Assembly: GCF_900110085.1 (NCBI RefSeq)
Contig: NZ_FOCK01000013.1
Coordinates: 1 to 64,000, forward strand
Direction: 5' to 3'
Length of the DNA stretch: 64,000 nt
From: Prevotella sp. ne3005
GTDB taxonomy: Bacteria > Bacteroidota > Bacteroidia > Bacteroidales > Bacteroidaceae
A program made the position numbers and the translations under genes. Positions 25,944-34,318 of this stretch are shown in pieces (the first letter of the stretch is position 1; every line of letters starts with the position of its first letter). The notes beneath the pieces were generated by a model. That model had not been told where the DNA came from. It did not search any database and was given only the letters and a program-made list of their open reading frames with translations.

Positions 25944-26546
25944 ATGATTTACACGGAAGGAAGACCAAAGATTGCCATCATCGATCCCAACACGCTGGCC
26001 ACGATGGGATTGAAACAGATGCTACTGAACGTGATGCCCATCATGTCGGTAGACACTTATGGTTCGTTCATGGAACTGGAAGCCAACCAGCCGGATCAGT
26101 ATTTCCACTACTTCGTCTCGATGGCCATTGTTCTTGAAAACAAGCCTTTCTTCCTTGAACGTAGCCGCAAGACCATCGTATTAACCCTCAGCCTCGACTC
26201 CATGTCGCAGCTATCGGAATTTCATAGTCTTTGCATTAATGTGCCGGAACAGGAACTGGTACGCTCCCTACTGATGCTTGAACAGCATGCTCATGGCCAA
26301 GGGCATAATATGCCTCCGATGCCTTCTGTCCTGACTCAGAAGATTCTCTCCGACCGTGAGATTGAGGTGATGAGTCTTATTGTACAGGGATTCATCAACA
26401 AAGAGATTGCCGAGAAATTGAACATCGGGTTGGCTACTGTCATCACCCACCGCAAGAATATCATGGACAAACTGGGGATGAAAAGTGTCTCCGCCCTGAC
26501 CATCTATGCCGTGATGCACGGTTATGTAGACATCAACAAGATATAA
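25944..26546 (+). CDS. LuxR-type response-regulator-like transcription factor
   Basis: A 200-residue protein. The N-terminal 125 residues form a receiver-like fold that starts KIAIIDPNTLATMGLKQML but has no obvious phosphorylation-site aspartate in the usual place after strand 3, so it may be a pseudo-receiver. The C-terminal LuxR/GerE helix-turn-helix (LSDREIEVMSLIVQGFINKE then IAEKLNIGLATVITHRKNIM, about 137-180) is well conserved. Its HTH closely resembles that of the convergent hemerythrin regulator at 26573, so the two probably share an ancestor and may share targets. Confidence 0.85.
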   Translation: MIYTEGRPKIAIIDPNTLATMGLKQMLLNVMPIMSVDTYGSFMELEANQPDQYFHYFVSMAIVLENKPFFLERSRKTIVLTLSLDSMSQLSEFHSLCINVPEQELVRSLLMLEQHAHGQGHNMPPMPSVLTQKILSDREIEVMSLIVQGFINKEIAEKLNIGLATVITHRKNIMDKLGMKSVSALTIYAVMHGYVDINKI

Positions 26547-26572
26547 GAAATCCCGCCGTTTGGCGGGATTCT
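26547..26572. terminator. Bidirectional hairpin terminator between the two LuxR-type genes
   Basis: GAAATCCCGCC (26547-26557) pairs with GGCGGGATTCTT (26562-26573) around GTTT, over about 10 bp. It lies between converging stops at 26546 and 26573. Confidence 0.75.
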
Positions 26573-27532
26573 TTATAACTTCACACTCGAGATATCAACC
26601 AATCTGTTGACGATAGCATAGATCGTCAGACCTGCCGGAGAATGGATCTGTAGTTTCCGGGCAATATTACGCCGATGGGTAATCACCGTGTTGATGGAGA
26701 TACACAGATGGTCGGCAATCTCCTTGTTCGACATGCCTTGCACCAACGAGATAATCACATCTTTCTCTCTATCGGAAAGGGCATCAGGATTCTGTACACC
26801 ACCCTTGAACACCATGCCCGTGATATTCCTCGAAACATCCTGCTGCTTCGTCATCTGCTCTAACCGACGGATGGCAGGCACAAAGATATGATCCTCTACT
26901 TGGGCATGCTGGCGTAACCACTCCTCGTTGTCATAGATATCATGGAGGGTAGCCGTCAACTGGTTGTTGTGGAGTCCGTCCTGAGGCAGGTATTTGATAA
27001 TCAGGAGTTTCAGCTCCCGAAGTTTCTTGTCGGCAGCACCGTGGTGCTTTGAGAAGGTCTCTACATTATAATCATTGGCAGGCTGTCCTTCCAGCAAGGT
27101 ATTGACATAGGGGAACAGCGTTTTCTGCTCATACTGCATATGACGGCGAATCTCATGGGCATACTCATCATAGAAACGCAGGATCAGTCTTGCAAGCGAG
27201 TCGTCCTCATTCAGCGATTCCTGCAACTCCCTACGGATAAAAGGCAACTGGAAGTCGAGGAAATAAGCATGACTCGCCTCCAGATAGTGCATCAGGGTCT
27301 GAACACTGATCTGCTCGTCGGCCTCAAACTCGCCATAACCGTTGATGGTATAGTTAACCACCGCCAAAAAGGTATAGGTATCTACATTATTATCCTCACA
27401 AGTCTCCTGCACCGTCTTGTCGCCAAAGCCCAGACTGATACCGAAGCTGCCAAGCGACTGCAGCAGGTCATAATTATCGCGGATCAGGGAAATCATCTTG
27501 TCATCCGCCTCATACATCTTCTGATTTTTCAT
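26573..27532 (-). CDS. Hemerythrin-domain LuxR-type transcriptional regulator
   Basis: A 319-residue fusion. The first 70 residues (LIRDNYDLLQSLGSFGISLG) resemble the ScdA/RIC N-terminal module. Residues about 80-225 are a hemerythrin-type four-helix bundle with histidines and glutamates at the expected places: EASHAYF, RRHMQYEQKTLFPYV, SKHHGAAD and QVEDHIFVPA, consistent with a di-iron site. The C-terminus is a LuxR HTH (LSDREKDVIISLVQGMSNKE then IADHLCISINTVITHR). It would sense O2, NO or iron and act on transcription. It is divergent from the porin-imelysin operon and shares its 210-bp control region, so that operon is the likely target. Confidence 0.83.
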   Translation of the reverse strand: MKNQKMYEADDKMISLIRDNYDLLQSLGSFGISLGFGDKTVQETCEDNNVDTYTFLAVVNYTINGYGEFEADEQISVQTLMHYLEASHAYFLDFQLPFIRRELQESLNEDDSLARLILRFYDEYAHEIRRHMQYEQKTLFPYVNTLLEGQPANDYNVETFSKHHGAADKKLRELKLLIIKYLPQDGLHNNQLTATLHDIYDNEEWLRQHAQVEDHIFVPAIRRLEQMTKQQDVSRNITGMVFKGGVQNPDALSDREKDVIISLVQGMSNKEIADHLCISINTVITHRRNIARKLQIHSPAGLTIYAIVNRLVDISSVKL

Positions 27533-27565
27533 CGTCGTATGCTACCTAATAATGATTATCGGGTG

Positions 27566-27573
27566 CAAAGGTA
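27566..27573 (-). promoter_or_regulatory. -7 box TACCTTTG for the hemerythrin regulator
   Basis: TACCTTTG on the reverse strand, 33 bp before the ATG at 27532. Confidence 0.6.
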
Positions 27574-27643
27574 GGCATATTTTCCGACTTGTGCAATAAT
27601 CAGAAGTAGGTATTTTTCGGGGTCTAAACCTTCCAAAATCCCC

Positions 27644-27719
27644 ATTTTTAGGCGATTTCACTATTTTTAGGTATTGGTGATTTGGCAAAGAGGCTGTACC
27701 TTTGCACACGTTTTTTAGG
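27644..27719 (+). promoter_or_regulatory. Repeated ATTTTTAGG motif around the porin promoter
   Basis: ATTTTTAGG occurs at 27644-27652 and 27663-27671, 19 bp apart, above the promoter. TTTTTTAGG occurs again at 27711-27719 in the leader. A two-turn spacing of identical sites suggests a dimeric activator or repressor. The divergent hemerythrin-LuxR gene is the obvious candidate; this is inference. Confidence 0.4.
27674..27704 (+). promoter_or_regulatory. Promoter of the porin-imelysin operon
   Basis: TTGG (27674-27677), a 19-bp spacer and TACCTTTG (27697-27704) form a near-ideal -33/-7 pair; the ATG is at 27743. Confidence 0.75.
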
Positions 27720-27742
27720 TATATTAAGTGATTATTAAGATC

Positions 27743-29047
27743 ATGAATAGTATTATTAATAAGGTATTATTAAGTGTCACGATTGGTCTATCCACCATGA
27801 CTACACAGGCACAGGAAGTGGCTGGCGACAGTGTGATGCAGCATGTCAAGGGCAACAAGTTTTCAATCGGCGGCTATGGCGAGGTGGCTTATAGCCGTAA
27901 TTTCTTTAGTGACCATGTAAGCCGATACAGTCAACCCGAACAGCACAAGGACGATCCGAGCCATGGACGCTTCGACATCCCCCACGCCGTGGTCTATATG
28001 GGTTACGATTTCGGAAAGGGCTGGACCTTCGGCACCGAGATAGAGTTTGAACATGGCGGCACTGGCATCGCTTACGAGAAAGAAGACGAGGAAGGTGGCG
28101 AATGGGAACAGGAGACCGAGAAAGGCGGTGAGGTGGAACTGGAACAGTTCTGGATTCAAAAGGCTTTCTCTAAGGCCGCTCACCTGAGGTTCGGACATAT
28201 CGTAGTACCCGTCGGCCTGACAAATGCACATCATGAGCCTCTTAATTTCTTCACTGTCTACCGTCCGGAGGGCGAGAACACCATCCTGCCCTGTACATGG
28301 CATCAGACGGGTGTTTCGTTCTGGGGACGATATAAGGACTTCCGCTACGAGGCCCAGTTCCTGGCTGGTCTGAATGCCGACAACTTCACCAACATCAACT
28401 GGATCAAGAAAGGTCCGAGTTCACCACTGGAGTTTGAGGTGGCCAACAAGTATGGTGTGGCCCTGCGCATAGACAACTACTCCATTCCCGGTCTGCGCAT
28501 CGGTGTGAGTGGCTACTATGGCGAGAGCATCGGCAACAGCTTCCCTAGGAATGCCAACGGTGTGGATGCAGAGTATAAAGGCCAGGTGGCCGTGGGGGCC
28601 ATCGACTTTACCTACCAAGGTCATAACTGGGTGGTACGCGGCCAGGCCGACTATGGTTATCTGGGCGATGCCGACCAACTGAAATATGTATATAACCGAC
28701 TAAACTCGAAATCGCCTTACAAGCACTCGGCCTTCGTCAGCAAGAATGCCTATGCCATTGGCATCGAGGCAGGTTATGACGTTTTCTCTCAGATTCAGAA
28801 ACTGCGCAAAGACGATCAGAAACTGTACATATTCGGACGCTATGAACAGTACAATCCCTACGCCTGCAATACCAAGGGAACAGCCTACGACTATACTGAG
28901 GTGAAACGCATGGCCGTAGGTGTGAACTATCACCCTGTGCACCAGATTGTCATCAAGGCCGAATACTCCAAACGATTCCTGAAGAGCCTTTATAACAACG
29001 AGCCGTCAGTAAATATCGGCGTGGCCTACGAAGGATTCTTTTTATAA
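27743..29047 (+). CDS. Outer-membrane porin (phosphate-selective-porin-like)
   Basis: A 434-residue exported barrel; start at MNSIINKVLLSVTIGLSTMT (ATG 27743) rather than the GTG at 27728, which adds five residues before the signal peptide. After TQAQ the protein opens with KFSIGGYGEVAYSRNFFSDH and continues in amphipathic strands to a C-terminal aromatic strand ending YEGFFL, as in OprP/OprO-like porins. An acidic segment of Glu/Gly residues (EDEEGGEWEQETEKGGEVEL) suggests a cation-binding loop. It heads a six-gene operon with imelysin and a di-heme protein, so passage of iron or an iron complex is likely. Confidence 0.84.
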   Translation: MNSIINKVLLSVTIGLSTMTTQAQEVAGDSVMQHVKGNKFSIGGYGEVAYSRNFFSDHVSRYSQPEQHKDDPSHGRFDIPHAVVYMGYDFGKGWTFGTEIEFEHGGTGIAYEKEDEEGGEWEQETEKGGEVELEQFWIQKAFSKAAHLRFGHIVVPVGLTNAHHEPLNFFTVYRPEGENTILPCTWHQTGVSFWGRYKDFRYEAQFLAGLNADNFTNINWIKKGPSSPLEFEVANKYGVALRIDNYSIPGLRIGVSGYYGESIGNSFPRNANGVDAEYKGQVAVGAIDFTYQGHNWVVRGQADYGYLGDADQLKYVYNRLNSKSPYKHSAFVSKNAYAIGIEAGYDVFSQIQKLRKDDQKLYIFGRYEQYNPYACNTKGTAYDYTEVKRMAVGVNYHPVHQIVIKAEYSKRFLKSLYNNEPSVNIGVAYEGFFL

Positions 29048-29049
29048 AA

Positions 29050-29085
29050 GGTAAAAAAGTAAAACAAGGTAATAACGTAATAATA
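29050..29085 (+). repeat. GTAA-rich short repeats in the porin-imelysin spacer
   Basis: The 47 bp between the two genes contain GGTAAAAAAGTAAAACAAGG, then TAATAACGTAATAATAAAAG, a loose GTAA(A/T) repetition. It is another case of a repetitive operon spacer. Confidence 0.35.
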
Positions 29086-29094
29086 AAAGCAACG

Positions 29095-30408
29095 ATGAAA
29101 AAGATTCTTATTCTCTCAGTAGCGTGCCTGATGGGCGCTCTGACCATGACATCATGTAGTGACAATGACAGCAACAGTAATGAAGACACGGAATTCAATG
29201 TTGTGACAACAGCTCCAATCGTTGATCAGGACAGCTATACTGCCAACACTACTGCATCCAACTACGCTGTAAAAACATTCGGAGAGACTGCCATCGACGG
29301 CTGTAGCGACCTCGTTGACGAACTGACAGCAGCCAATGCCACCATCGCATCGTCTAAGCTCTCCGAGGCTCAGGAAACTTATCTACGGGAGGTGCTCAAA
29401 AACCTTGTTAACAACGTGATTATACCTACCTACACCAAACTCGCCGACGAGACAGAGGCTCTGGAGAAGACCCTGAACGGACTGACCACCAACACCATCA
29501 GCCAGACCCAGATCAACGCTGCCTGCGAAGACTTCAAGAAAGCCCGTCAGTACTGGGAGCAGAGTGAGGCCTTCCTCGGAGGTGCCGCCTCCGACTTCGA
29601 CGTCGATCCCACCATCGACTCATGGCCGCTGAACCGTTCGCTGCTGTTGAGCTACTTCAACAACGGCATGGACGATGAGATGCTCGACGATGCCACCATC
29701 CTCGGCTTCCATGCTCTGGAGTTCATCCTCTTCCGCGACGGACAGCCCCGTAAGGTGGCAGAACTGCAGGCAAACGATACCTACAAGAACTTCGAGAAGA
29801 TTACCGGTGCCCAGGAGCTGACCTACGCACAAACCATCTGTAAGCTGCTGAAGGAGCGCACCTTCCAGTTGCAGTGTGCCTGGGACGGTGGTGCCAATGC
29901 CAGTCGTCTGGCCATCGTGAAGGCTGCCGGACTGGACTATCAGACGGAGAAGGGTCTCTCGTATGGTGAGAACCTGACCACGGCAGGCTTGGATGGTAGC
30001 AAGAGTTCTTTCCCCACGCTAAAGGCAGCCATCGCACAGGTACTCTCCGACGATGAGGGAAGTTGTGTAGCCATCGCCAACGAGGTGGGTACCGCTAAGA
30101 TTGCCAACCCCTTCTCTGCAGGTGACGTGTCGTATGTGGAGTCACCCTATAGCTATAACTCTATCACCGACTTCCGCGACAACATCCGTTCTATCCGTAA
30201 CGTCTGGCTGGGTTCAACCGATAAGTCGGCTAACAAATACAGTTTCCACACCTTCTTTGCCAGCGTGAAGAACGAGGCTGTGAACAACAAGGTAGAGAAC
30301 GCATATGTGAGTGCCATCGAGGGCATCTGCAACATGCCGTCACCCTTCGTAAAATACTGCTGCACCATCTGGGGCATCGCCTTCGAGGACGATGAGGATT
30401 GGGAATAA
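29095..30408 (+). CDS. Imelysin-family (M75) lipoprotein
   Basis: A 437-residue lipoprotein; the signal MKKILILSVACLMGALTMTS runs into a lipobox ending in Cys21 followed by SDNDSNSNED. The imelysin motif GxHxxE is at GFHALEFILF (His206, Glu209), with a second conserved region WDGGANASRLA. Imelysins include EfeO and ICMP-type proteins and bind iron; peptidase activity is not shown for most. It sits outside or at the periplasmic face of the envelope, between the porin and the di-heme lipoprotein. An iron-capture role is the best-supported reading. Confidence 0.9.
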   Translation: MKKILILSVACLMGALTMTSCSDNDSNSNEDTEFNVVTTAPIVDQDSYTANTTASNYAVKTFGETAIDGCSDLVDELTAANATIASSKLSEAQETYLREVLKNLVNNVIIPTYTKLADETEALEKTLNGLTTNTISQTQINAACEDFKKARQYWEQSEAFLGGAASDFDVDPTIDSWPLNRSLLLSYFNNGMDDEMLDDATILGFHALEFILFRDGQPRKVAELQANDTYKNFEKITGAQELTYAQTICKLLKERTFQLQCAWDGGANASRLAIVKAAGLDYQTEKGLSYGENLTTAGLDGSKSSFPTLKAAIAQVLSDDEGSCVAIANEVGTAKIANPFSAGDVSYVESPYSYNSITDFRDNIRSIRNVWLGSTDKSANKYSFHTFFASVKNEAVNNKVENAYVSAIEGICNMPSPFVKYCCTIWGIAFEDDEDWE

Positions 30409-30438
30409 GCAATATAAACATTCTAAATAAAACCCTTT

Positions 30439-32199
30439 ATGACAATCAATTCAAAATTACACCACATGATGTGTGCTGCGCTTCTGATGAGTGCAGCACT
30501 CGTCAGTTGTACAGACGACACCACCACCAGCAGTCTGGGACCGCTCGTTCCCGAAGAAGAGACCTTCGGTAAAGCTAATGACGTATTCAGTGCCGAGGAA
30601 TGGTTCCCCGGCGGAGAACTGGGAACCACCGAAAAGGCCAGTTACTCAGCTTCTACTCCTGCCATAGAGAATATTGCTGGCATGGAAGATGACTTCAATA
30701 CCGGTGAAGATTTCTTCGAACATCTCTACACCTTCGATGTAGCTCCCCGTAAGGGTCTTGGTCCAGCGTGGGTACGAAACAGCTGTATCGCCTGCCATCC
30801 CAGCTACGGACATGGCAAGCGCCAGACGGAATACCGTGCCAACACCATCGGTAACGGTTATCTGCTCGTAATCTACCATCCCGACAACAATGCTTACATC
30901 TCAGAGGTGACAGGAATGCCGCAGACAGCAGCCATGGCTCCATTCAAGGCTCCTATCGACGAGAACCAGATTCAGATTGAATGGAAGACAGTCGATGCAA
31001 TGGAGAGTGGACTGGCCATGAATTTCCCCGACGACGGTGAGAAATATGAACTCATCTATCCCGAGGTGCGCATCCCGCAGTCGGCTTTCAACACCAACCC
31101 CAAGCCCACGAACTACGATGTACGCCTGGAGTCGACCATCGGCGTCTATGGCACTGGACTGCTCGACGCTCTCGACGATGAGGATATCGAAGCCCAGTGG
31201 AAGGCAGAGTCAAAATATGTGGAACTGAACCCTGCCATGTGGGACAAGGAGGCTGGAAAGTTCAAGGCTTCAGCTTATTACAGCGCTCCCTACAACGACA
31301 CTGGTTCGCACCGTGGCTCTCATGGTCCCCTCAAACGTTTCACCTATGCCATGACGCGCGGTTCTCTACAGGACGGTGCCGGTGCCAATGCCATTTGGAA
31401 CATCACCAACGTTACCCGCAGCGACCGTCACTGGCTCTATACCACCACAGCCTGGGCCAAGGCTCAGAGCGAGGATCCTGAGGTCATCAGCTATATCAAG
31501 GAACATGGTTCTTCGACTGCCAGCATTCTGCATCCTTATTATGCCGACGGCACAAACGAGGGTATCGCCAACCGTGTCTACGAGGTTCTGAACACCCCAT
31601 CCGTGGCATACAAGGAGACCTTCGAGAAATATCTGCTTAACGATACCTATTATGGTGGCCAAGAAGAGATGAACGACAAGCAGTACTACCAGTTTATGGT
31701 GTGGCATCGCGGACTGGCTGTTCCCGCCGCCCGTAACCTGAACGACGACGCCGTGAAGCGCGGCAAGACGCTCTTTACCGAGATAGGCTGTGCCAACTGT
31801 CACCGTCCATCATGGAAGACAGGCTCAGACAACATGTGGATCGATGCCAGCATCAAGGCCTATGCCCAGAGCATCGGAAAGGATGCCCGGAGTATCATGC
31901 CCAGATATGCCGGCCAGACCATCTGGCCCTATACCGACATGGTGCAGCACCGGCTCTTCATGATGAACGACATCCGCACAGGCTGGTGCCGTACGACACC
32001 TCTTTGGGGACGCGGTCTCTCACGTCAGCTGACTGGTGCCGACGACCGTCTGCATGACTGTCGTGCCCGAACGGTCATCGAGGCCATCATGTGGCACGGC
32101 TACAGCAAGAAGTCGGATGCCTATAAGCCCACGGAGAAATTCTATAACCTACCGAAGGCCGACCGTGACGCCATCGTGAAGTTTATCGAATCTATATAA
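30439..32199 (+). CDS. Di-heme oxidoreductase-family lipoprotein (DUF1111-like)
   Basis: A 586-residue lipoprotein (lipobox ...AALVSC, Cys24 region) with two c-type heme motifs: CIACH (Cys116-His120) in NSCIACHPSYGHGKRQ and CANCH (Cys451-His455) in EIGCANCHRPSWKTGS. This is the pattern of the 'thiol oxidoreductase' di-heme family related to bacterial di-heme peroxidases. The final helix includes WHGYSKKSDA. Covalent heme needs a cytochrome c maturation system. In iron operons such proteins are suspected to move electrons to or from imelysin-bound iron. It starts 31 bp after the imelysin gene. Confidence 0.9.
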   Translation: MTINSKLHHMMCAALLMSAALVSCTDDTTTSSLGPLVPEEETFGKANDVFSAEEWFPGGELGTTEKASYSASTPAIENIAGMEDDFNTGEDFFEHLYTFDVAPRKGLGPAWVRNSCIACHPSYGHGKRQTEYRANTIGNGYLLVIYHPDNNAYISEVTGMPQTAAMAPFKAPIDENQIQIEWKTVDAMESGLAMNFPDDGEKYELIYPEVRIPQSAFNTNPKPTNYDVRLESTIGVYGTGLLDALDDEDIEAQWKAESKYVELNPAMWDKEAGKFKASAYYSAPYNDTGSHRGSHGPLKRFTYAMTRGSLQDGAGANAIWNITNVTRSDRHWLYTTTAWAKAQSEDPEVISYIKEHGSSTASILHPYYADGTNEGIANRVYEVLNTPSVAYKETFEKYLLNDTYYGGQEEMNDKQYYQFMVWHRGLAVPAARNLNDDAVKRGKTLFTEIGCANCHRPSWKTGSDNMWIDASIKAYAQSIGKDARSIMPRYAGQTIWPYTDMVQHRLFMMNDIRTGWCRTTPLWGRGLSRQLTGADDRLHDCRARTVIEAIMWHGYSKKSDAYKPTEKFYNLPKADRDAIVKFIESI

Positions 32200-32200
32200 A

Positions 32201-32779
32201 ATGTTGAGGATAATAAAACGTTATTTGTTGATGCTGACCCTGCTATCCTACGCAGGGTCAGTTTCTGCTATTGTTACAGAGGCCCTTCCCAAGGCGCAGG
32301 CCAAACACTTCTGCCAGTTGCTCATCAACGACGGCAATAGCATCGCTCCGCTGAACTATCACGCCCGTAGTCTCATGACACAGGAAGACAGTCTGACCGC
32401 AGAACAGCTGTTTGCAGGCTACATCTTTTTCCAGGACAACTGGAAGACCATGCGCTTCTTTCCCCACACTGGCGAGGACGGCATCGTCACATGGTATGCA
32501 CCGACAGACCAGCTTCCGTCGACACTCAGCCCAGAGCATCAAAAATATATCCGCGAGGTGTTTCCCCGCCTCAGCAACGAGATACAGGCCGGTAATTGGG
32601 AAACCGTCGATGCCTATATCGACAAGATGATAGAATATCAATGCAAATACGGGGGTAGTGAGGCCGCAGATACCATTGAGCCGTCCCACCTGATAGGGAT
32701 AATCGTACTTTTCTTGATAGGTTTGGCTGTTATTTCATTTTTAATTCGTAACTTTGCAGCCAAAATAACAAAACAATGA
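32201..32779 (+). CDS. Small exported membrane protein resembling a cytochrome c biogenesis segment
   Basis: A 192-residue protein with an N-terminal signal sequence (to about residue 24, SVSA), a periplasmic domain (about 25-160) and one C-terminal transmembrane helix (about 165-187, HLIGIIVLFLIGLAVISFLI). The domain has the pattern APLNYHARSLMTQEDSLTAE then QLFAGYIFFQDNWKTMRFFP, which resembles the extra periplasmic segment found inside large Bacteroidota CcsA/CcsB-type cytochrome c biogenesis proteins (a 'P.n..A..........ls.eq...g..f....W' pattern). It follows the di-heme gene by 1 bp, which supports a heme-attachment or assembly role. This similarity is from memory and needs testing. Confidence 0.6.
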   Translation: MLRIIKRYLLMLTLLSYAGSVSAIVTEALPKAQAKHFCQLLINDGNSIAPLNYHARSLMTQEDSLTAEQLFAGYIFFQDNWKTMRFFPHTGEDGIVTWYAPTDQLPSTLSPEHQKYIREVFPRLSNEIQAGNWETVDAYIDKMIEYQCKYGGSEAADTIEPSHLIGIIVLFLIGLAVISFLIRNFAAKITKQ

Positions 32780-33918
32780 ACGAACAACTCTCACATATCG
32801 ATTTTGAGAATACCCGTGCCGATATCTTTTGCTTTGATACATGCACGGAGGTCAGAGAATATCATGCGATGATTCACGTCACCCAAAAAGGGCTGACGTA
32901 TGCCCAGCAGCTGGAGGCAGTGATGGATGCCTACAATGGCCTGCTCAGTCAGTTGCCCGACACCCAGGCCGTGTTCAAGCGCTACTTCCTGAGCGACGCC
33001 GCCAACCAGGCCGACGACATCATCGTTACCGACGTCACCGACTGTGCCAAGAGCATTATCCAGCAGGCACCCCTCGACGGTACGAAAGTGGCCCTTTGGG
33101 TCTATCTGATGTCAAACGTTCAGACAGGTTTGACCAAGAGCGGCCTTTACGAAGTGCGCCATGGTGAGTTCCGTCACCTCTACAATGCCTCGGCCCATAA
33201 CCTGGCAGCCAACTCGGAGTACCAGATGCGCCTGCTCTTCAACGAGTATATCATGCAGCTTGCTGAAGAGGGCTGCACACTCTCCGACAACTGCATCCGC
33301 ACATGGCTCTTTGTCAACGATATCGACCTGAACTACGGCGGTGTGGTTCGCGCCCGCAATCAGGTATTCTTTACCCAGGGCCTCACGGTACACACCCACT
33401 TCATTGCCTCTACAGGCATTGGCGGTCGTCAGGCCGACCCCAACGTTCTCTCGCAGATGGACAACTACGCGGTTGCAGGTATCAAGCCTGAGCAGATACA
33501 CTATCTCTACGCCCCTACCCATCTGAACCGCACCAGCGACTATGGTGTGAGCTTCGAGCGCGGCACCTATATCGACTATGCCGACCGTCGCCATGTGTTC
33601 ATCTCGGGTACCGCCAGCATCAACAACAAGGGCGAGATTCTTTTCCCCAAAGATGTAGAGAAGCAGACCCGCCGTATGTGGGAGAATGTAGAGGCCCTGC
33701 TGAAGGAAGCCGATTGCACCTACGATGATGTCTGTGAGATGATTGTCTATCTGCGTGATGTGGCCGACTACGAGCTTGTACGCAGTCTCTACGAGGAGCG
33801 CTTCCCCGGCAAGCCCTATATCATTGTCCACGCTGCCGTCTGCCGTCCCGGTTGGCTGGTAGAGATGGAGTGTATGGCCTTGAAGAAGATTGAAAACAAC
33901 GCATATAAACCGTTTTAA
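32776..33918 (+). CDS. Chorismatase/Rid-like (YjgF-superfamily) protein
   Basis: A 380-residue cytosolic protein without signal peptide. The C-terminal half (about 225-370) is an YjgF/Rid-like fold with HVFISGTASINNKGE, QTRRMWENVEALLKEADCTY and the ending HAAVCRPGWLVEMECMA. The N-terminal half has IRTWLFVNDIDLNYGGVVRA and HFIASTGIGGRQAD. This two-part layout matches chorismatases (FkbO/Hyg5/XanB2), which turn chorismate into hydroxybenzoates or dihydroxy-cyclohexadiene acids. It overlaps the previous gene by 4 bp (ATGA). A link with iron uptake, through a chelating or redox-active aromatic acid, is speculation. Rid-like deaminase is the alternative. Confidence 0.65.
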   Translation: MNEQLSHIDFENTRADIFCFDTCTEVREYHAMIHVTQKGLTYAQQLEAVMDAYNGLLSQLPDTQAVFKRYFLSDAANQADDIIVTDVTDCAKSIIQQAPLDGTKVALWVYLMSNVQTGLTKSGLYEVRHGEFRHLYNASAHNLAANSEYQMRLLFNEYIMQLAEEGCTLSDNCIRTWLFVNDIDLNYGGVVRARNQVFFTQGLTVHTHFIASTGIGGRQADPNVLSQMDNYAVAGIKPEQIHYLYAPTHLNRTSDYGVSFERGTYIDYADRRHVFISGTASINNKGEILFPKDVEKQTRRMWENVEALLKEADCTYDDVCEMIVYLRDVADYELVRSLYEERFPGKPYIIVHAAVCRPGWLVEMECMALKKIENNAYKPF

Positions 33919-33928
33919 TGTGACGACT

Positions 33929-34318
33929 ATGAACAAGAAATATCAGTTCCTTTTGCTGGCTGTCGCACTCTGTCTCCAGAGCTTTATGGTAGGTGACGAC
34001 ACCATGACAAAAGAAGATGGCGTGTACGTCATCAATACAACCGAAATCGGTAAGGACATCGAAGGCTACCAGGCTACCACCCCATTGAAAGTCTACATCA
34101 AGAAAGACAAGGTCGAGAAGATAGAGTTCCTCAAGAGTCAGGAGACGCCTAAGTATTATGCGAAGGTGAAAAAGGCCTTGCTCAACACATGGGATGGAAA
34201 GAAAGTCAAGGACGCCAAGGCGCTGAAGGTCGATGCTGTCACAGGAGCCACCTTCTCCTCCGATGCTGTCATCGAGAACGTTCGTCTAGCCCTCGATTAC
34301 TACCAGAATCACAAGTAA
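33929..34318 (+). CDS. Exported FMN-binding protein with flavinylation motif
   Basis: A 129-residue exported protein; the start MNKKYQFLLLAVALCLQSFM (ATG 33929) gives the signal peptide, while the open frame begins earlier inside the previous gene. The FMN-binding motif DAVTGATFSS is at residues 102-111; Thr108 is the threonine to which ApbE transfers FMN in this family. Such proteins carry electrons outside the cytoplasmic membrane. It is the last gene of the operon, 10 bp after the Rid-like gene, and its last 10 bp overlap the convergent serB. It could reduce iron or the di-heme protein. Confidence 0.82.
   Translation: MNKKYQFLLLAVALCLQSFMVGDDTMTKEDGVYVINTTEIGKDIEGYQATTPLKVYIKKDKVEKIEFLKSQETPKYYAKVKKALLNTWDGKKVKDAKALKVDAVTGATFSSDAVIENVRLALDYYQNHK

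Follow-up and report, generated by a model that had tools for sequence, protein, structure and literature searches.

An imelysin/di-heme operon of Prevotella sp. ne3005 with a chorismatase-like gene and a divergent hemerythrin-LuxR regulator

Genes at the locus and the conserved unit

The stretch analysed here (the window; 64,000 nucleotides, positions 1 to 64,000 of contig NZ_FOCK01000013.1, RefSeq assembly GCF_900110085.1) belongs to the genome of Prevotella sp. ne3005, which comprises 3.57 Mb in 21 contigs and has rumen Prevotella as its nearest relatives. It encodes a run of six genes on the plus strand (27743-34318), including those of an outer-membrane barrel, an imelysin, a DHOR di-heme protein and a chorismatase-like protein, and a divergent gene coding for a hemerythrin-LuxR regulator; all these genes are open at the coordinates listed below. 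The recomputed spacings of the six-gene run (47, 30, 1, -4 and 10 bp) are those given in an earlier note made from the sequence alone, and the gene content, order and motifs described there were confirmed by open reading frames, Pfam matches and motif positions. The divergent regulator gene across a 210-bp control region was likewise recovered, with an HHE hemerythrin and a GerE domain according to Pfam. The note had begun the feature at 26573; it extends further to the left, luxR1 adjoining the hemerythrin-LuxR gene in many relatives. The features are as follows.

27743-29047, plus strand: outer-membrane barrel ('porin'), conserved upstream of the imelysin gene; Pfam match below threshold
29095-30408, plus strand: imelysin (M75) with a lipoprotein-type start; PF09375 above cut-off, GxHxxE at 204-209 in canonical order
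30439-32199, plus strand: DHOR di-heme c-type protein with a lipoprotein-type start; PF06537, CxxCH at 116 and 451
32201-32779, plus strand: stand-alone CcsBA middle domain, without the ResB and CcsA parts, by hhalign to CcsBA
32776-33918, plus strand: chorismatase-like protein, predicted CH-II type from fold and active-site residues
33929-34318, plus strand: exported FMN_bind protein with DAVTGAT (PF04205); adjacent, probably not a component
27533-27742: divergent control region, with operator-like words TTTTTAGG at 27645, 27664 and 27712, TTTTTAGGTATTG at 27664-27676, and TACCTTTG / CAAAGGTA at 27697 and 27566
26573-27532, minus strand: hemerythrin-LuxR regulator with a RIC-like di-iron domain (PF01814, 51 bits) and a GerE DNA-binding domain (PF00196, 60.6 bits)
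26548-26571: GC-rich hairpin followed by T-rich sequence, a possible terminator, between luxR1 and the hemerythrin-LuxR gene
25944-26546, plus strand: luxR1, a LuxR-type regulator (GerE, 64.8 bits), neighbour of the hemerythrin-LuxR gene and left of the part covered by the earlier note

Terminator-like sites in the window are no more frequent than in shuffled sequence (6 found, 6.7 expected), so that the hairpin at 26548-26571 lacks statistical support as a terminator.

DHOR was detected in 86 of 120 Prevotella genomes surveyed, and its surroundings were taken for 72 of the 85 genomes other than that of the window; the 13 genomes left out, G179, G181, G238, G253, G197 and G255 among them, gave mostly partial or weak matches, with four full-length ones. 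The 72 loci were mapped with the window proteins and a few added references. An imelysin gene is present upstream of DHOR in 72/72 loci and a barrel gene in 71/72, the sole locus without it being interrupted by a contig end, while a Ccs-derived gene is found downstream in 67/72. This conservation of the block rules out a chance neighbourhood of unrelated genes. The hemerythrin-LuxR regulator is divergent within the stretch examined in 39 of the 72 loci.

The unit formed by barrel, imelysin and DHOR is thus an ordinary one in Prevotella, in agreement with the earlier note, which had treated porin, imelysin and di-heme protein as a combination already known in Bacteroidota. Operons of imelysin and DUF1111 genes, including those of Bacteroidales, have been described and linked to iron uptake (PMC3143127, available part), and the iron link proposed for the window genes therefore concerns a unit of a kind already tied to this process. 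According to the same part of that source, imelysins and DHOR proteins are frequent in the envelope, and their chemistry is little understood. An imelysin of P. bryantii was found at higher abundance in cultures with acetate and valerate (PMC7709123, available part).

The imelysin is the single Peptidase_M75 match in the genome (PF09375, 128.8 bits for a cut-off of 23.5); its GxHxxE motif, GFHALE at 204, includes the HALE reported earlier at 206-209, and its closest PDB entries by sequence are 3n8u and 4ecg. The protein first called DUF1111-like is a DHOR protein (PF06537, 108 bits for a cut-off of 22) that carries the two CxxCH motifs of a di-heme protein, CIACH at 116 and CANCH at 451; a sequence search of the PDB with it gave no match. 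As to the 'porin', a barrel match is present and lies below the cut-off (PF13568, E 0.0056), so that this designation holds in part.

Two operon types were distinguished: type A, the window type, and type B, which contains an extra Porin_O_P gene and a gene coding for a lipoprotein with one CxxCH. For 9 of the 17 type-B loci (e.g. L049, L055, L099, L106, L111, L210, L212, L213, L214), tblastn detected the pieces of imelysin in exchanged order, the pattern expected of the circularly permuted Bacteroidales imelysins described in the available part of PMC3143127. A permuted imelysin in all type-B operons is ruled out by the same count.

Judging from profile alignment, the small membrane protein encoded downstream of DHOR corresponds to the middle domain of CcsBA, the ResB-CcsA fusion synthase that belongs to this unit. 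Indeed, when 16 window-type proteins were combined into a profile, it aligned with four CcsBA proteins over CcsBA columns 219-435 (hhalign 99.8%, E 6.1e-30), a segment that sits between ResB (66-160) and CcsA (468-657) in the numbering of the L024 protein. The window protein has no Pfam match to ResB or CcsA, and its short form, lacking both parts, cannot alone be a complete synthase; against the PDB (E up to 0.001) the middle domain showed no match to a known fold. Among the 72 DHOR loci, the short form alone was found in 9 and both forms in 2. As the middle of the unit's own CcsBA, this protein, described in the earlier note as resembling a cytochrome c biogenesis segment, is part of the old block and not of the addition.

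Attachment of c-type heme remains possible in this organism, as two further CcsA genes are encoded in the genome, one of them after two CxxCH-rich genes that by eye resemble NrfH and NrfA. In five loci (L151, L152, L175, L176, L181), CcsBA aligns with the reference over about 4-218 (4-235 in L176) and then from 556 (570 in L152) onwards; these proteins apparently lack the middle, the very part of which the short form in the window consists. In L161 and L184, a short middle-domain gene is followed by a second, divergent ResB-/CcsA-like pair (26-34% identity) resembling two pairs located elsewhere in the window's genome. An orphan ResB/CcsA-like pair also occurs on contig 18 of that genome (G000; L216), with no CxxCH gene among the open reading frames listed around it.

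The chorismatase-like protein and its genomic settings

The chorismatase-like protein matches Ribonuc_L-PSP (Rid) in Pfam, and this match is confined to its C-terminal third, which on sequence is best matched by Rid models and structures; it could on this basis be an ordinary Rid deaminase, or an RNase, with a duplicated domain. The predicted structure makes this improbable. Indeed, the AlphaFold model (mean predicted local distance difference test, pLDDT, 88.3) has the two-domain chorismatase fold over its full length, and in the Foldseek comparison with the PDB ranks 1-6 are all chorismatase chains (5a3k, 5ag3, 4bps), ahead of every Rid chain, with template modelling (TM) scores of 0.62-0.64 (query) and 0.70-0.73 (target) over 333-341 columns at 18-20% identity. 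Searched alone against the PDB, the N-terminal part gave nothing significant.

The active site was aligned through a bridging protein (L236), a more chorismatase-like Bacteroidota protein whose PDB alignment shows Hyg5 and FkbO. Twenty-six residues are common to Hyg5 and invariant across 11 family rows from ten genomes, among them Glu363, counterpart of the catalytic Glu334 of Hyg5. The CH-II markers are also present, with Gly214, Gly278 and Cys356 corresponding to Gly173, Gly240 and Cys327 of Hyg5; they are given for Nat-hyg5 as Gly164, Gly231 and Cys318, nine below the Hyg5 numbering, in the available part of PMC7170507. Nineteen positions that were checked, including the catalytic Glu and the CH-II markers, are invariant in 94/94 enzyme rows, which include a few identical or same-genome copies and are not independent. 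Since Glu363 also aligns with a Glu of Rid proteins, and Gly173 with a Gly of FkbO, the discrimination is carried by Gly278 and Cys356, which agree with Hyg5 where FkbO has Ala and which argue further against a Rid deaminase.

All 11 family rows match the FkbO/Hyg5 model TIGR04444, and the window protein scores 42.7 bits for a cut-off of 325, short of formal membership. Chorismatase-like working of the enzyme is nevertheless well supported, and the predicted, most likely reaction is cleavage of chorismate to 3-hydroxybenzoate and pyruvate. A profile search of 345 genomes elsewhere in the phylum (E 1e-12) returned no chorismatase above the cut-off; as it misses the window's own gene, this result does not cover the Prevotella family.

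Among 149 genomes sampled from the order, 15 gave a match and ten, that of the window included, encode a full-length copy. In four of the nine others (L019, L022, L023, L024) the gene lies in a barrel-imelysin-DHOR operon, and three of these four have two genes in between, for an additional barrel and for a lipoprotein with one CxxCH (L022 and L023 according to Pfam, L019 by eye). Separate hemerythrin and LuxR genes lie downstream of the enzyme gene in L023. Two chorismatase-like copies occur close together in L019 (G105) and in G261:C9, and a seemingly decayed copy, in pieces with stops, is found in L028 (G059, of the same family as the window's genome).

In Prevotella, the chorismatase-like gene was found in 66 of the 120 genomes, about 20 of which hold only copies of 40-46% identity; a stricter count was made as well. 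DHOR and the enzyme are associated (both 58, DHOR only 28, enzyme only 8, neither 26; Fisher p 1.5e-5), also in genomes at least 90% complete (31, 14, 3, 9; p 0.009) and with the stricter hits (42, 44, 4, 30; p 1.4e-4), all these p-values ignoring kinship. Physical linkage was observed as well, the enzyme gene and DHOR sharing a contig at a distance of at most 9 kb in 16 of the 86 DHOR genomes, for about 0.34 expected. Within the 72 DHOR loci the gene is present in 13 (type A 7/66, type B 6/6). As it recurs beside the unit in these 13 loci and in four of the nine other full-length genomes of the order, the chorismatase-like gene belongs to this setting, in line with the earlier note.

The enzyme loci examined were the best 80 of 579 confirmed ones and are hence biased to close relatives. 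The gene is in the operon in 24 of these 80 and probably in one more, cut by a contig end; it lies directly behind luxR1 in 12 according to the script (13 with L035, added by tblastn) and close to luxR1 in 2, faces a hemerythrin-LuxR gene in 3, follows a major facilitator superfamily (MFS) transporter gene in 8, and falls in other surroundings in 30 by script classes, L035 being one of these. The eight copies directly behind an MFS gene (L083, L089, L090, L093, L094, L095, L097, L098) lie beside a possible product exporter, the MFS_1 match having been checked for L093 only (72.9 bits). In three loci (L044, L047, L077) the hemerythrin-LuxR gene faces the enzyme gene with no barrel, imelysin or DHOR gene between them.

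The scatter of these settings is consistent with an independent gene under LuxR control that has often moved and whose only tie to the iron module would be shared promoters. A tree of 104 enzyme rows was built rapidly under LG+G4; 27 of its 99 inner branches are unresolved, and it came with warnings of long branches. On this tree, operon membership switches at least 19 times, and copies linked to luxR1 are the closest to that of the window. Several relatives have luxR1 immediately next to the enzyme gene, beside OadB; in the window the segment from the regulator gene to the small membrane protein gene separates them, an arrangement that may reflect either insertion or loss, both of which fit. 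Nevertheless, the linkage to DHOR is about fifty times that expected by chance and extends across several families, the changes of membership are fewer than in 30 shuffles (27-38), and the motif of the hemerythrin-LuxR regulator follows the gene in 3/3 cases where it faces the enzyme gene. An independent gene is thus a possible explanation to which we give a minor share of belief.

The flavin protein encoded next to the enzyme meets a different fate. It contains an FMN_bind domain (PF04205, 58.7 bits, above cut-off) with DAVTGAT at 102, and its flavinylation is possible since one ApbE flavin transferase gene (303.3 bits) is present in the genome. These features would suit the chain proposed in the earlier note, in which a flavinylated protein exchanges electrons with the di-heme protein in an iron/electron-transfer system. 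The gene, however, is widespread (89/120 Prevotella genomes), adjoins the enzyme gene in only 3 of 30 mapped loci (window included) and in 7 of the 80 enzyme loci (the best of 579), and lies near DHOR on the same strand in 0/72 loci and once on the opposite strand (L144). The flavin protein is therefore rejected as a component, being probably a bystander that adjoins the operon only by exception. These counts lend no support to an electron chain that passes through it, the reading that includes it being highly improbable, and a movement of electrons to or from iron would fall to the putative redox role of the di-heme protein alone. As for the conservation of the last three genes beside the first three, it holds for the Ccs-derived gene, holds for a recurrent minority of loci in the case of the chorismatase-like gene, and fails for the flavin gene.

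The hemerythrin-LuxR regulator and its candidate operator

The earlier note had proposed a regulator with a di-iron sensor domain, and this proposal is supported by residues: His88, His131, Glu135, His164, His209 and Glu213, which we take to be the RIC di-iron ligand set, are invariant in 14/14 rows. The structures nearest to the hemerythrin domain are ScdA and YtfE, by weak matches (E 5.6e-4 at best), and in the alignment with ScdA five of the six residues fall on His or Glu, His88 being one column off. The regulator scores 46.8 bits with the RIC model TIGR03652, for a cut-off of 204.7.

Furthermore, a word (AATACCTA/TAGGTATT) is present in 53 of 60 control regions between regulator and barrel, for 0.56 expected (type B 13/13, type A 40/47); these regions include a few identical or same-genome copies (e.g. 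L055 and L212, L065 and L157) and are not independent. With at most one mismatch to TTAGGTATTG, the count is 56/60, for 52 of 2000 random 300-bp pieces. The TAGGTATT word is also found in 3/3 control regions that have the enzyme gene opposite the regulator gene; between these two genes, L077 retains a remnant of a one-CxxCH lipoprotein (cytochrome) gene. From the conservation of this word, the simplest reading is that of a dedicated local switch, with the word as candidate operator.

A wider hemerythrin-LuxR regulon in the window's genome was rejected, since 19 sites (at most two mismatches) were counted for 26 in the reversed control, and only the window site is exact. Control of the luxR1-linked enzyme genes by the same operator was rejected too, 0/12 of their upstream regions containing a site at one mismatch or fewer; for other enzyme copies the count is 3/79 at this threshold, near the background of the random pieces.

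Interpretation and comparison with known systems

The account that we prefer, and to which we give about an even chance, is that of an iron module of the imelysin/di-heme type (Efe/ICMP-like) with a probably O2- or NO-responsive regulator and a recruited chorismatase-like accessory, the flavin protein being a bystander. The outer-membrane barrel and the imelysin lipoprotein would take up or hold iron, and the DHOR c-type di-heme lipoprotein, with a CcsBA-type synthase helping its making, would perform a redox step beside the imelysin, possibly as a peroxidase or oxidase; iron binding by imelysin and the redox step of DHOR are proposed here from knowledge of the families. The divergent regulator, probably switched by O2 or NO at its di-iron site, would act on the local TAGGTATT operator. 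The cytosolic chorismatase-like enzyme would have come under this control here and, more than once, in other lineages, and would most likely yield 3-hydroxybenzoate and pyruvate from chorismate. At a guess, the most likely use of the aromatic acid is within the module, as reductant of DHOR or as weak iron ligand; it could alternatively be used, with pyruvate, as peroxide protection.

Several observations weigh against this account. The enzyme gene is missing from the operon in 59 of the 72 DHOR loci, occurs without detected DHOR in 8 of the 120 Prevotella genomes, and lies in other surroundings in the 30 loci mentioned above; kinship is ignored in the co-occurrence tests, and the score with TIGR04444 is low. 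In addition, no gene using 3-hydroxybenzoate was seen in the window operon, and the single strong operator-like site in the genome means that no wider regulon backs the sensor reading.

The same genes could serve stress defence rather than uptake. The regulator would sense O2, NO or peroxide, DHOR would be a peroxidase, the imelysin would keep iron from Fenton chemistry, and the enzyme would give a phenolic reductant, or pyruvate that scavenges peroxide. The RIC family is named after the repair of iron-sulphur clusters; the resemblance of the regulator to RIC, ScdA and YtfE proteins and the annotation of DHOR as a putative peroxidase are consistent with this possibility, while the regulator misses the RIC cut-off, and iron uptake is the process with which operons of imelysins have hitherto been connected (PMC3143127, available part). 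Defence is a tentative reading, on the unlikely side, that on present evidence nearly equals iron uptake.

Returning to the iron module, a bolder and rather doubtful extension is that Bacteroidales convert chorismate into a small aromatic acid when it is needed, with a di-iron regulator that senses O2 or NO in control, and that this acid drives or protects the di-heme/imelysin iron system of the envelope. If true, this would be a home-made aromatic co-factor of iron capture, neither siderophore nor quinone, in anaerobic Bacteroidales.

The imelysin/di-heme operon is of a known kind; new are the recurrent chorismatase-like accessory, the hemerythrin-LuxR regulator with its conserved site and the reduced CcsBA. 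In the literature searched (titles and abstracts, with subscription journals mostly outside), no link of a chorismatase or a hemerythrin-LuxR regulator to such a module was found for Bacteroidota. If the chorismatase shares the response of the module, the question of the DHOR substrate becomes testable with one metabolite, and the regulator with its conserved operator-like site offers a ready promoter test of O2, NO or iron as signal. A chorismatase outside secondary-metabolite clusters, with markers fixed across a large Prevotella family, would widen this enzyme class.

Compared with the imelysin/DUF1111 operons of the available part of PMC3143127 (P. aeruginosa PA4370-PA4373, EfeUOB, Bacteroidales), the window operon shares a GxHxxE imelysin beside a di-heme protein, the envelope location and the implied iron role; unlike them, as far as that part goes, it adds the barrel, the CcsBA-derived gene, the divergent hemerythrin-LuxR regulator and the chorismatase-like gene, and unlike EfeUOB it has no EfeU permease among its genes. 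With the chorismatases FkbO and Hyg5 (4bps, 5ag3, 5a3k), the enzyme has in common the full-length fold, the catalytic Glu and the CH-II markers Gly, Gly and Cys, whereas identity is about 20% and the gene is found among heme and iron genes, not among polyketide or peptide synthases. The regulator resembles RIC proteins (ScdA, YtfE; TIGR03652) in its hemerythrin-type domain, with five ligand-type residues aligned, and differs from them in being fused to a GerE DNA-binding domain and in scoring below the family cut-off. The FMN_bind domain and DxxTGAT motif of the flavin protein are those of RnfG-like proteins, from which it differs in being short, single-domain, exported and not tied to the operon. 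Finally, the small membrane protein is homologous to the middle, extracytoplasmic-looking part of the cytochrome c synthase CcsBA and, unlike CcsBA, is encoded without the ResB and CcsA parts.

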